Below are positions 2 through 12,754 of a stretch of 64,000 nt of DNA, in pieces. A model generated the notes under the pieces. It was given only the letters and a program-made list of their open reading frames with translations. It was not told the origin of the DNA and searched no databases. Origin of the DNA: Balneola sp. (GTDB taxonomy: Bacteria; Bacteroidota; Rhodothermia; Balneolales; Balneolaceae); contig JANQSE010000009.1 of assembly GCA_028284195.1 (NCBI GenBank), forward strand, positions 1 to 64,000, written 5' to 3'. Numbering within the stretch: position 1 is the first letter of the stretch; every line of letters begins with the position of its first letter. Made by a program: the position numbers and the translations under genes.

Positions 2-98
2 CCATTGAATTTAGTCCAAGTTGGGATGAGTTGCTACGCAACTTTGTACTTAGCCCAGCCACGTTGAAGATGAAGAGCGGAGCGAATTCATCTTCAAC
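2..98. repeat. 97-bp direct repeat, copy 1 (identical copy at 1001-1097)
   Basis: ccattgaatttagtccaagttgggatgagttgctacgcaact...gcgaattcatcttcaac occurs identically at 2-98 and 1001-1097. Confidence 0.95.
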
Positions 99-211
99 GA
101 CCAGATAAGCTCTGTGAGCATACCCTTTCTAATTCATTCTAAGGTTACTGTTTCGCACTGAAATTTGCTTACAGCTCAGTATGCTCATTGAGCTTATCAT
201 TTGTTAGTTGC
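92..211. repeat. attC-like imperfect hairpin: CTTCAAC...GATAAGCTCTGTGAGCATAC / GTATGCTCATTGAGCTTATC...GTTAGTTGC
   Basis: Arms 104-123 and 179-198 are complementary with 2 mismatches and are bounded by AAC (96-98) and GTT (203-205). Confidence 0.5.
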
Positions 212-224
212 TTTTTATATCTCG

Positions 225-932
225 CTACTTTTCGCCATAAATTTGCTGAATTCCAGCTATGTCACCATTTTGCAGACCGTTCATTGAAAATTTAGATCCA
301 TCCGGAACCATAATGTTCTCGGAATTTACATGACCTAACCCTAAAACATGACCTATTTCGTGTAAGGCATTGATGTAAAATCCACTGCACGACTTTTCTC
401 TCGAATTCGCATCAAAGATCACATCTCCTTTCAGAATATTACAGGGTTCTTCCCGATAGTTTGGGAACGCCACTGCGGATTGAAAAATAGCTGCTAAATA
501 AAATTGAATATCGCTCTCACTATTTGCCGGCAATTCTTCAAATGTGATGTTAGTGACCATTTCCCATTCACCTAATGCCTGCCGTATTCTCTCTTGTGCA
601 CAATCCAGAATCTCGTCCCAAGATTCTGAGGGAACATTTGTTTGTCTGTGTGTATTAATTAAATGACCGGTTCCCTGAAAAGAGAATGTTATCGTACCAC
701 CTGGAGTCTGTGGTCCTGTTGCTTCAATTCCTGTTTCATCAAAGTCTTGATTTTCTCCCCATTTATAGCCAAAAAGACAATACTCTCCAACTCTACTACC
801 TGCGCATGCATCCAACCTTGAATTACATACAGAATAGGCGTCTGATTCATTGATGATTGGAATATCTTTTGAGCATCCATTTAGTAACAGTAGAAAGAGT
901 GCACTTAGTTGTATTTTGATATGTTTACCCAT
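225..932 (-). CDS. Matrixin-like zinc metalloprotease, predicted lipoprotein
   Basis: HEIGHVLGLGHVNSENIM fits HExxHxxGxxH plus a Met-turn (metzincin). Signal peptide has lipobox-like LLNGC. Confidence 0.85.
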   Translation of the reverse strand: MGKHIKIQLSALFLLLLNGCSKDIPIINESDAYSVCNSRLDACAGSRVGEYCLFGYKWGENQDFDETGIEATGPQTPGGTITFSFQGTGHLINTHRQTNVPSESWDEILDCAQERIRQALGEWEMVTNITFEELPANSESDIQFYLAAIFQSAVAFPNYREEPCNILKGDVIFDANSREKSCSGFYINALHEIGHVLGLGHVNSENIMVPDGSKFSMNGLQNGDIAGIQQIYGEK

Positions 933-964
933 GTTTATTCGTAATTATGCAGAGTTACGTTATT

Positions 965-1068
965 GCGACTAACGTGGCTGGGCTAAGTACAGTGGTTTCG
1001 CCATTGAATTTAGTCCAAGTTGGGATGAGTTGCTACGCAACTTTGTACTTAGCCCAGCCACGTTGAAG
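965..1068. repeat. attC-like hairpin: GCGACTAAC-GTGGCTGGGCTAAGTAC ... GTACTTAGCCCAGCCAC-GTTGAAG
   Basis: Perfect 20-bp arms at 971-990 and 1045-1064 with a 54-nt loop. AAC/GTT lie at the outer edges. Confidence 0.55.
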
Positions 1069-1097
1069 ATGAAGAGCGGAGCGAATTCATCTTCAAC
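1001..1097. repeat. 97-bp direct repeat, copy 2
   Basis: Identical to 2-98, offset 999 bp. Confidence 0.95.
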
Positions 1098-1156
1098 ATA
1101 AGAATAACACGCATGCTATTCATGTTATCCGGGTTTCATCTTTAAGTGTAATTGTT

Positions 1157-1183
1157 GTTATTCCTGTAATAAACAGGAATAAC
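1157..1183. repeat. Perfect 11-bp inverted repeat GTTATTCCTGT-aataa-ACAGGAATAAC
   Basis: Arms 1157-1167 and 1173-1183, loop of 5 nt. No strong T-run on either side. Confidence 0.8.
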
Positions 1184-1297
1184 ATGAAGAAAAGTGATTT
1201 ACTGCAAAAGTACAAGCGTCAGGTTATTCCGGAAGTAGTGGTGTGGAGTACATGCAGATAGGCTGTCATCGAACTACCTAATTTCCGGGAAGAATGC

Positions 1298-6989: not shown

Positions 6990-7649
6990 ATGAAGAAACA
7001 CAGAGGTAAACCAATCGTTCAGATTACCGATCCTGAAATAGATCGTTACTCAGAAAATCATACAACGCCAGAAAGTGAAGCTCTTAAAGAGCTTATTAAA
7101 TCCAGCGACGAGGCTCTTGAATATATCGACATGTTAAGTGGTAGAATTGTGGGCCAATTTTTGAAAATGATGGTACAAATTTCAAAGGCAAAGCGGATTC
7201 TTGAAATAGGTACATTTACCGGATATTCGGCCTTAATGATGGCTGAAGCATTGCCTGAAGATGGAGAGATGGTAACTTTGGAGATGAATTATAAATACCA
7301 GGAAATTGCTCAAAACCATTTTGATAGCTTTCCCAATGGTTCAAAGATTAAAGTGATAAAAGGAAATGCTCAGAAGACCATCACTACGTTAGAAGGGGAG
7401 TTCGATATGGTTTATTTAGATGGGGACAAATTACAATACGAGCATTATTACGGAGAATCGATGAAACGCCTGAAGCAGGGCGGTTTGATTATTGCCGATA
7501 ATGTGCTTTGGGATGGAATGGTACTTGATCCTGAAGATTCTAAATCCCGGGCTATTAAAAATTTTAATGCATTGGTAGCAAAAGACGAAAGGGTAGAACA
7601 GGTACTGCTTCCGGTTCGCGATGGCGTTAGTGTGATAAGGAAAAAATAG
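6990..7649 (+). CDS. Class I SAM-dependent O-methyltransferase (caffeoyl-CoA OMT-like)
   Basis: ILEIGTFTGYSALMMAEALP, MVYLDGDK, IIADNVLWDGMV. Confidence 0.9.
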   Translation: MKKHRGKPIVQITDPEIDRYSENHTTPESEALKELIKSSDEALEYIDMLSGRIVGQFLKMMVQISKAKRILEIGTFTGYSALMMAEALPEDGEMVTLEMNYKYQEIAQNHFDSFPNGSKIKVIKGNAQKTITTLEGEFDMVYLDGDKLQYEHYYGESMKRLKQGGLIIADNVLWDGMVLDPEDSKSRAIKNFNALVAKDERVEQVLLPVRDGVSVIRKK

Positions 7650-7657
7650 GGCTTAGA

Positions 7658-8503
7658 TTATTCCATAATCGATTTACACACATAATCCGGGATTATTCCC
7701 GTCGAACAGATTTGAGATTTATAACTGTCTTCCCGGGTATTTCCTGAAAGCACCAGCATGGTTTTGATCCCAAACTTGTTGCCGCCCAAAATGTCTGTCT
7801 TTAGTGTATCGCCAACCATGAGTATATCGTTTTTGTTGATGAACTCGTCTTTAGTTAATTGTTCATAGGCATACATAAACATCTGGGAATCCGGTTTTCC
7901 AAAATGGATGAATTTTTTCCCCAGCAGATTTTCAACCAGCTTAGCAATGCCTCCAGTAGCAATCGATACATCGTTACTTGAAACAGGATAGTAGTAATCA
8001 GAATTAGCCAGAATCACCGGCATATTTTTCTTTCTGAGAAGGTTTACTGTCTTGTTGATGTCGGTATTCCAATCAAAGCCTTCATCATCCAGGAAAACGC
8101 AGGCAGAAATTTCATCAAGATTTTCAAGATCTAAGTCGCGCACTGCAACATGCTCCAGGCCCGATTGCAGGATATAATCTGCTGAGTTTTCGGTTCCAAG
8201 ATATGCAATTTTTCCGCTGGTAATTTTTTGTTCCAGAAAATGTTTGGCCATCATCCCGGAAGTAAGCATTTCATGCAGCTCAATTCCCGGAAGGCCTAAT
8301 TCCATATATTTATCTATCTGTTGTTGCGGGCTCCGGGACGCATCGTTTGTAAGAACCCTGAACAATTTATTCTCTTTTCGGATGAACTCAAGCGTTTTTT
8401 GAGCTCCTTCAATCAATCCATTATGGTTTTTAATCACGCCGTAAGAATCCAGCATAATGACTTTAAATTGTTTGGCTAATTCAAAAAAAGAAGGATAGCT
8501 CAT
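7658..8503 (-). CDS. HAD superfamily class IIA hydrolase (TIGR01459/NagD-like)
   Basis: LDSYGVIKNHNGLIEGAQKTLE, VLTNDASRSP, HFGKPDSQMF, MVGDTLKTDILGG. Confidence 0.85.
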   Translation of the reverse strand: MSYPSFFELAKQFKVIMLDSYGVIKNHNGLIEGAQKTLEFIRKENKLFRVLTNDASRSPQQQIDKYMELGLPGIELHEMLTSGMMAKHFLEQKITSGKIAYLGTENSADYILQSGLEHVAVRDLDLENLDEISACVFLDDEGFDWNTDINKTVNLLRKKNMPVILANSDYYYPVSSNDVSIATGGIAKLVENLLGKKFIHFGKPDSQMFMYAYEQLTKDEFINKNDILMVGDTLKTDILGGNKFGIKTMLVLSGNTREDSYKSQICSTGIIPDYVCKSIME

Positions 8504-8504
8504 A

Positions 8505-9548
8505 TTATAATTCCAAAGCTTTTAATAAAGGTTCAGGGTTAAATGTATCATCCAGGGTGGGTAAATGTACTTCTAAAGCTTCTTTTTGTAGTTTGTTGGC
8601 AAATATCTCATGAAAAAAGAAACGCCCGTATTTGATCACATAATTCAGGATAAAAAATCTATACGCTTCTTTTAGAAACCATATTTCCCGTTCACTAAGG
8701 GCGAATACTTTGTGATATGATTTCAGGAAAGTAATGAATCGTTTTTCCATCATAACATCTACATTGTAAGTAAATATTGTTTTGTCGCCTATATCTGATG
8801 AAACACGGCTAAAAAAGTAGAAATCAAGCATCCGGGTACTCATTCTAAACCAATCATAATCCCAACGGGAAAAAAGCTTGAAGTTCTGTGTTACTGAAAA
8901 ATTGCCAATGTTCCAGTCTACAAATACCGGGATTGAATCAAGTTTTGCACCTTCAGTTTTTGCATAGTTATCCAGAAAAAGATCACAGTGTTTTTTGATC
9001 AGTTTTCGATGGACAGGGTAGGCATATTTACTGGATGAATCATCCAACAAATCAATTAGTTCATGGATGTCATCCTGCATGGTTTTGGACGACGCAGGCA
9101 GTGTTGATTTAACCGTATCGCAAGCTTTATGGAAATGAGCAGCTTCAACTCCTAGTTTCTGGACTTGACTCTCATTCAGGCGTTTAGGCAGTTTCTTTTT
9201 AATATGGATTGGACGATAAAAGACAACCCACGCATCAATAATTTCGTTCTGGAAACGATGTACAAATAACTTGTTTCCTTTCATTAATGAGCGGGCTAGA
9301 AAATTCTCGAATGGAGATGGAAGGTTGTTAGATAGCGTGTTTATGATGCTGTGATCTTCCACAAAATGTTCATACTTACCAAAATAAGACAGCTTAGCAA
9401 CTATGTAGTTTTTGTCTTTTAGTGTTATACGGTATACATGGTTAGTAGAAACTTTGGCACTTATATCAATAATGCGGATAATTTCCCTGGTTGGGTCATA
9501 TTCTTTCCAGGCTTCGCGGATAATGGTATCAAAATCAATAAATGCCAT
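8505..9548 (-). CDS. Aminoglycoside-phosphotransferase/choline-kinase-like protein
   Basis: PVFVDWNIGNFSV resembles a Brenner-type kinase loop, followed by SRWDYDW. Confidence 0.65.
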   Translation of the reverse strand: MAFIDFDTIIREAWKEYDPTREIIRIIDISAKVSTNHVYRITLKDKNYIVAKLSYFGKYEHFVEDHSIINTLSNNLPSPFENFLARSLMKGNKLFVHRFQNEIIDAWVVFYRPIHIKKKLPKRLNESQVQKLGVEAAHFHKACDTVKSTLPASSKTMQDDIHELIDLLDDSSSKYAYPVHRKLIKKHCDLFLDNYAKTEGAKLDSIPVFVDWNIGNFSVTQNFKLFSRWDYDWFRMSTRMLDFYFFSRVSSDIGDKTIFTYNVDVMMEKRFITFLKSYHKVFALSEREIWFLKEAYRFFILNYVIKYGRFFFHEIFANKLQKEALEVHLPTLDDTFNPEPLLKALEL

Positions 9549-11778: not shown

Positions 11779-12754
11779 AATATTTCCAGATGATGGAGAT
11801 GTTTATTTTGCCAGACAGTTTTTTTGGTTTTGAATGTGAAATCTGCCTTCTCTTTTTTTGAATTGCCTTCCATCCCATGATAAAATGCAGATGTGCTTTT
11901 GCAATAGAAGAAAACTCTTCTTGCTTACCCGACAGCAAGGATTTCCATGCCGCTACTATATCTAATAACCAACGGATTGGAAAGCGAAATAGCAGCTCTG
12001 GAACAGAATAATTCTTCCAGAGCATAAACAGGTTATTCCGGAAGTTGTAATACACTTTTCGGGGAGAGCCCATTGCTAAAGAACCACCTCCTAAGTGATA
12101 TACTACACTTTTTGGGGTGTACATGATTTTATGTCCGGCACGCTTTGTACGCCAGCATAAGTCAATTTCTTCCATATGGAATTCAAAATCTTCATCAAAG
12201 CCGCCAAGTTTTTCAAACACTTCTTTTTTTATGGCCAAAGCAGCTCCGCTTGCCCAGAATATTTCAGCCGGTTCGTCAAACTGTCCCTCATCTTTTTCAA
12301 CGGTATCAAAAATACGCCCGCGGCAAAACGGGTATCCGTATTTATCAATAAATCCTCCGGCAGCACCCGCATATTCAAAGTAATCGGGTTGTTCATAAGA
12401 GAGCATTTTTGGCTGGACGGCTCCCACAGTTTCGTCATCTTCAAATGCTTGGTTGATTTCATGCAGCCAGTCAGGTTCTGTTTTTACATCGTTATTTAGA
12501 AATAGCAGAACTTCTTTATTTGCATAAGCAACGGCTTTATTATTTCCGCCGCAGTATCCATAGTTATCATCAAAGGTTGCGATGATTACTTCCGGAAAGT
12601 GCTCGTTTACCCATTCCACTGTTCCATCACTAGATGCATTGTCAGCCAGGATAATCTCGAAATCGGGATAATCGGTAACGCAAACAGAAGGGAGGAAAGT
12701 TTTTAAATGATGAAGCCCGTTCCAGGTTACAATAATTATGCTGAATCCCTTCAA
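11726..12754 (-). CDS. Glycosyltransferase family 2 (rhamnosyltransferase-like)
   Basis: FSIIIVTWNGLHHLKTFLPSV, LADNASSDGTVEW, FLNNDVKTEPDWL, EEIDLCWR. Confidence 0.9.
   Translation of the reverse strand: MKGFSIIIVTWNGLHHLKTFLPSVCVTDYPDFEIILADNASSDGTVEWVNEHFPEVIIATFDDNYGYCGGNNKAVAYANKEVLLFLNNDVKTEPDWLHEINQAFEDDETVGAVQPKMLSYEQPDYFEYAGAAGGFIDKYGYPFCRGRIFDTVEKDEGQFDEPAEIFWASGAALAIKKEVFEKLGGFDEDFEFHMEEIDLCWRTKRAGHKIMYTPKSVVYHLGGGSLAMGSPRKVYYNFRNNLFMLWKNYSVPELLFRFPIRWLLDIVAAWKSLLSGKQEEFSSIAKAHLHFIMGWKAIQKKRRQISHSKPKKLSGKINISIIWKYFVAGKKKFKQLPSHESQ

Follow-up and report, generated by a model that had tools for sequence, protein, structure and literature searches.

A decayed cassette platform at the edge of a Balneola contig and its probable place in an integron-like system built around a short tyrosine recombinase from a sister clade of IntI

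The DNA analyzed here (the window) covers the opening 64 kb of contig C15 in a 2.68-Mb Balneola genome (G000), and its left edge carries a direct repeat, two hairpins, and a gene for a matrixin-like protease. We find that the window starts with the attI-proximal end of a small, decayed cassette array, and we consider it likely that this is what remains of a platform in an integron-like cassette system whose driving enzyme, a short tyrosine recombinase of a clade sister to IntI, lacks the additional domain of IntI. With somewhat less confidence, we think it probable that a large share of Bacteroidota carries a second class of integron, in which folded single-stranded sites are recombined without the IntI domain and the strand is chosen by one G·T wobble rather than by extrahelical bases. 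The integrase lineage is apparently undescribed, widespread in Bacteroidota, and sister to integrons. The arrays themselves are solid; that the short integrase recombines folded single strands is what we infer from them. Comparison of genomes delineates the platform, the boundary at attI, the cassette units, and a link between site type and integrase type.

Much of what an earlier note had read from the window alone was borne out. The 97-nt direct repeat is perfect (2-98 and 1001-1097, 100% identity), and both hairpins it described between an outer AAC and GTT are real: one has a 21-bp stem with fully complementary arms (971-991/1044-1064; edges 971-973/1062-1064), the other a 20-bp stem with 90% complementarity (104-123/179-198; edges 96-98/203-205). 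Repeat and hairpins lie far above chance expectation; on shuffled sequence, the background of our structure finder was 0.31 matches per 10 kb. Further copies of the repeat, which the note had proposed to look for, are abundant, with many full or partial ones across the genome (E < 1e-8). Contigs C4, C13, C15, C17, and C19 start within the repeat and C8 ends within it; because C15 begins inside it at base 1 of the window, the left part of the array is missing through an assembly break. Rfam, applied to the window at gathering cut-offs, gave zero matches.

Beside the cassettes lie an attI and the start of an integrase gene, whose frame opens at 1184, matches the intact integrase on contig C17 for ~13 codons, and then runs into unrelated sequence and stops soon after. 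All related arrays share one polarity, by which the window array is read along the minus strand, in the order attI (1183 to 1094), a gene-less mini-cassette (1096-972), the matrixin cassette (972-97), and a second mini-cassette that is cut off (Table 1). The matrixin-like gene, whose product has a lipoprotein-like N terminus, is therefore oriented as cassette genes usually are, and its attC follows it downstream. The earlier note had called this gene reverse-oriented and placed the unit at 203-1062, which has both the wrong strand and the wrong boundaries (the cassette spans ~97-972, with attC at 96-205); it had also taken the repeat as the border of this unit, but the repeat belongs to a separate gene-less cassette. 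Its proposal of an edge of an integron or an integrase-less array is right: attI and a truncated integrase adjoin the cassettes, and further sites and an intact integrase occur in the genome. The label of canonical integron does not fit, however: the integrase that goes with these sites is without the IntI-specific domain, and the sites themselves have no extrahelical bases. The window copy has the arrangement of a CALIN (cluster of attC sites lacking integron integrases), namely an attC cluster with no neighboring intact integrase. Since it has no intact integrase and an atypical attC (28.7 bits, with no greater stability of the bottom strand), the window copy may be a relic, and with its own integrase broken, it could move only with the C17 integrase in trans.

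Table 1. Features at the left edge of the window, in window coordinates
Feature	Position	Strand	Basis or remark
Partial second gene-less mini-cassette, cut by contig start	2..98	-	97 nt identical to 1001-1097
attC of matrixin cassette, type B, atypical; plus-strand AAC 96-98, GTT 203-205	96..205	-	Finder score 26.8; covariance model R1 28.7 bits, E=0.0016
Matrixin gene cassette including its own attC; G^TT boundaries on minus strand	97..972	-	Analogy with related arrays
Matrixin-like (M10) zinc metalloprotease, 235 aa	225..932	-	Open reading frame; Pfam PF00413 56.9 bits; motif HEIGHVLGLGH
Mini-cassette site, perfectly paired 21-bp hairpin, AAC/GTT ends	971..1064	-	One orientation in copies from other Balneola arrays
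Gene-less mini-cassette, first after attI	972..1096	-	Repeats in G000, G002, G003, G004, and G006 at 94-100%
attI, abuts integrase start	1094..1183	.	89/90 identical to attI of intact C17 platform
Integrase gene 5′ remnant, ~13 codons, MKKSDLLQKYKRQ	1184..1222	+	Alignment with C17

The intact platform of this genome is on C17, where positions 11797-12636 encode a 280-aa tyrosine recombinase that adjoins attI and an array of sites we call type B. Truncated integrase starts stand behind the same attI at C4:120 and C19:120, with a more distant one at C17:110438. The earlier note had suggested a search for intI; the only matches to canonical IntI in G000 fall below the cut-off and are the short integrase, XerD, and XerC, the genes for the last two being located elsewhere in the genome. 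Homologues of the C17 integrase (74-78% identical) adjoin arrays in other Balneolaceae; G017, for example, has 13 sites in a 15-kb stretch, and G004 has seven type-B sites plus five mini-cassettes. Upstream of the integrase, G001, G003, G004, G017, and G020 share a conserved attI block of ~90 bp. Intact platforms comprise integrase, attI, and arrays of mostly one-gene cassettes, each closed by a hairpin site with AAC and GTT at its edges.

Cassette content varies between close relatives, a variation that the earlier note had asked for. G001 and G004 have integrases one residue apart in DNA that is 98.1% identical over 943 bp; the homology stops exactly where CAAC meets ATAAG in attI, and from this boundary onward the cassettes differ, save for one distal 1.4-kb block at 93.5%. 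As in integrons, attI beside the integrase is, on this comparison, the predicted insertion point. Flavobacterium arrays are found downstream of the integrase, and the likely attI there is a conserved block that lies ~100 bp beyond the stop codon and ends in AGTT. Sites upstream of an integrase are on the integrase strand and downstream ones on the opposite strand (exceptions: L104 3411 and L143 6415), so that in either layout an array reads outward from the platform. At one locus (G203:C13 1071-66370), sites adjoining a short integrase extend over >60 kb, an array of superintegron size.

The cassettes behave as units. Among 70 cassettes from 11 array segments, the two ends of a cassette are complementary at a mean of 5.27 of 8 positions, compared to 2.77 when pairing is shuffled (no higher than 3.37 in any of 2000 shuffles) and 2.86 across a site; the matrixin cassette has 5/8. 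The largest open reading frame is in the sense direction in 60 of the 70, antisense in four, and absent in six. These arrays of mostly single-gene, co-oriented cassettes with paired ends are what is seen in canonical integrons.

Type-B sites were characterized with a covariance model, R1, built from 27 of them (23 from Balneolaceae and four from two other loci), with the window attC (96-205) kept out of model building. Like attC, they have AAC/GTT cores, an unpaired spacer between core and stem, and an imperfect stem. Stem covariation is 0.626 versus 0.152 shuffled in the 27-site set, and 0.694 versus 0.161 in a set of 112 sites whose weakest accepted members score ~31 bits. On the bottom strand, a single position holds a G·T pair in 26/27 and 112/112 sites, with adjacent pairs varying freely; the second count is an upper estimate because those sites were found with a model favoring G·T. 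The same position on the top strand is an A·C mismatch, and the bottom strand consequently folds better in 31 of 33 type-B sites, compared to 10 of 36 classical sites of the same family, which have no such bias. Stems from Balneola have the fixed G·T in place of a conserved bulge and show no extrahelical bases; some Flavobacterium sites have a possible extra base, as judged by eye.

The site type bears on whether this could be an ordinary canonical-IntI integron or CALIN, whose cassettes are or were moved by IntI and beside which the short integrase is an unrelated neighbor. Many relatives do carry canonical IntI, and the AAC/GTT cores and cassette organization are the same as in canonical integrons. 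However, G000 and G017 have arrays and no IntI above the cut-off, and in G003, which holds both systems at separate loci, IntI sits with ten classical attC while the short integrase sits with type-B sites. At classical IntI loci, R1 gave no significant match (best 24.6 bits, E=0.014). In a phylum sample of 248 Bacteroidota genomes, R1 matched in 127, and the matches track the short integrase (51/56 genomes with the short integrase only, 18/21 with both) and not IntI (10/50 with IntI only); for the association of sites with the short integrase, Fisher P=3e-17, a value uncorrected for shared ancestry. On co-occurrence and site type, we reject canonical IntI as the enzyme serving type-B sites, and we regard an ordinary integron as an improbable explanation of these arrays. 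In the same sample, canonical IntI exceeds its family cut-off in 71/248 genomes and is commoner than the surveys we consulted suggest.

The short integrase itself is ~280 aa long; in many Bacteroidota, an N-terminal extension brings it to ~360 aa. Its KGxKDR and HxLRH motifs are 58-59 residues apart in 78/78 measurable loci, compared to 100 in full-length IntI (one IntI row, a partial PDB sequence from which this stretch had been removed, was left out of this comparison). The predicted protein lacks the ~42-residue additional domain specific to IntI, and in this it departs from canonical integrons. Against the IntI model TIGR02249, the short integrase scores 199.6 bits (cut-off 265), and its best NCBIfam match is the XerA-type model NF040815 (219.1 bits, cut-off 220). 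A first tree grouped the short proteins and IntI (Shimodaira–Hasegawa-like approximate likelihood ratio test 97), apart from Xer and XerA, with the divergent row L138 outside both clades. In a second tree, which omitted L138, L140, and one XerA with long branches, plus nine near-copies, the short clade (87/95) was sister to IntI (100/98) within a joint clade (100/99) apart from XerA and XerC/D. The short integrase is placed neither within IntI nor with XerC, XerD, or XerA, and the tree fits both a joint ancestor without the additional domain and a loss in the short lineage. An AlphaFold model of moderate quality (predicted local distance difference test 76, predicted template modeling score 0.49) had IntI4 and XerA as its best PDB matches and was used as support only. 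The family extends to Calditrichota, Ignavibacteriota, Fidelibacterota, and Marinicella. In the gammaproteobacterium Marinicella pacifica (L087), a 51% identical short integrase (8001-8840) is accompanied by a type-B site (7184-7306), likely through inter-phylum transfer.

By analogy with IntI, the short integrase would bind the folded bottom strand of attC, and exchange would take place at G^TT between the folded attC and a double-stranded attI. The strands would be told apart by the fixed wobble, G·T on the bottom versus A·C on the top. The sites might instead be recombined as double-stranded, Xer/dif-like sites with hairpins that are incidental or are, for example, terminators; the catalytic domain is indeed of Xer size and without the IntI domain tied to folded attC. 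Long stems that covary while their sequence is free, a spacer left unpaired between stem and core, and a wobble specific to one strand would nevertheless be unexpected in a double-stranded site read by its sequence, and we consider this alternative very unlikely.

Several points weigh against a system of folded sites and a short integrase. The window attC is weak and without bottom-strand preference, and the hairpin of the mini-cassette has no wobble and is unrecognized by the site model. R1 also matches in 48/121 genomes with neither integrase above threshold, whose integrases may be diverged, lost, or split at contig ends. Passages of PMC8138268 report the additional domain to be essential in IntI. 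Finally, the case is built on genome comparison, with recombination itself inferred.

The mini-cassette is 126 bp long, has no gene and a perfectly paired hairpin, and comes first after attI in both the window and G004. At the ends of contigs C4 and C19, its inner part sits directly against attI. Its ends (GAAGATGA/TCATCTTC) are complementary at 8/8 positions. Copies are near-identical within a genome and 94-97% identical between Balneola species, and weaker relatives occur in two other genera. The high copy number, lack of a gene, and near-identity within a genome would also suit a MITE-like (miniature inverted-repeat transposable element) or selfish palindromic element that landed beside cassettes as the 97-bp repeat spread, but the copies occupy the space between an attC and the following cassette, carry the same AAC/GTT edges, keep one orientation, and repeatedly adjoin attI. 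Since such an element would cover at most the mini-unit, we reject it for the whole array and retain it there as a minor rival with a very slim chance of being right. The simplest guess is that the mini-cassette is a selfish or spacer cassette using the same integrase. No promoter was found within it, the sequence having been read by eye only. A 36-nt inner palindrome occurs in both orientations in G000 (C4:40415 and C8:94395 versus window 62-99), and the 94-nt hairpin in one; local inversion of the inner palindrome is possible.

Cassette cargo elsewhere is varied. On C17 (L033 423-9661), one ~9.7-kb cassette holds six genes, encoding homologues of MzaB, C, D, and E, a C5 methyltransferase, and a Vsr-like nuclease, and is by its gene content a predicted MZA-type defense system. 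A cassette in G219 (L185 8944-10160) encodes an Erm(F)-like 23S rRNA methylase (225 versus a broad Erm cut-off of 212), and one in Flavobacterium enshiense (L104 13019-14353) a MerTP mercury transport protein. Further cassettes contain HchA and a TrlF-family ATPase.

A sister lineage without the additional domain that keeps attI, cassettes, and folded sites would open the origin of integrons and of strand selection to direct tests. It would also point to a large, apparently unannotated cassette pool with a defense system, mercury transport, and an Erm(F)-like methylase among its contents: type-B sites occur in about half of the sampled Bacteroidota genomes, whereas the only complete integron that IntegronFinder 2.0 reported for Bacteroidetes proper was that of Salinibacter ruber (PMC9024848). 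Integron integrases have been defined by, and searched for through, the additional domain, which is held to be essential (PMC2426708, PMC9668308). We found no account of a short-integrase cassette system in the open-access literature, a search that preprints and most subscription papers lay beyond. The short proteins may be among the members of the "Integron-like" subgroup of tyrosine recombinases in PMC8138268, passages of which name no cassette arrays, attI, or site type for insertion-less members.

Among known systems, the short-integrase arrays are most readily set beside sedentary chromosomal integrons such as those of Vibrio and Xanthomonas, with which they share an attI beside the integrase, sense-oriented arrays, AAC/GTT cores, folded-stem attC, complementary cassette ends, and turnover at attI. 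They differ in an integrase that lacks the additional domain and forms a sister clade, in a fixed G·T with no conserved bulges, and, in many Bacteroidota, in an array downstream of the integrase. The window array resembles a CALIN as defined by IntegronFinder (PMC9024848) in having no intact integrase, but it retains attI and an integrase start, and its sites are of another type. Like XerA, XerC, and XerD, the short integrase is a short, simple tyrosine recombinase; unlike them, it falls in a separate clade with IntI and is linked to cassette arrays.
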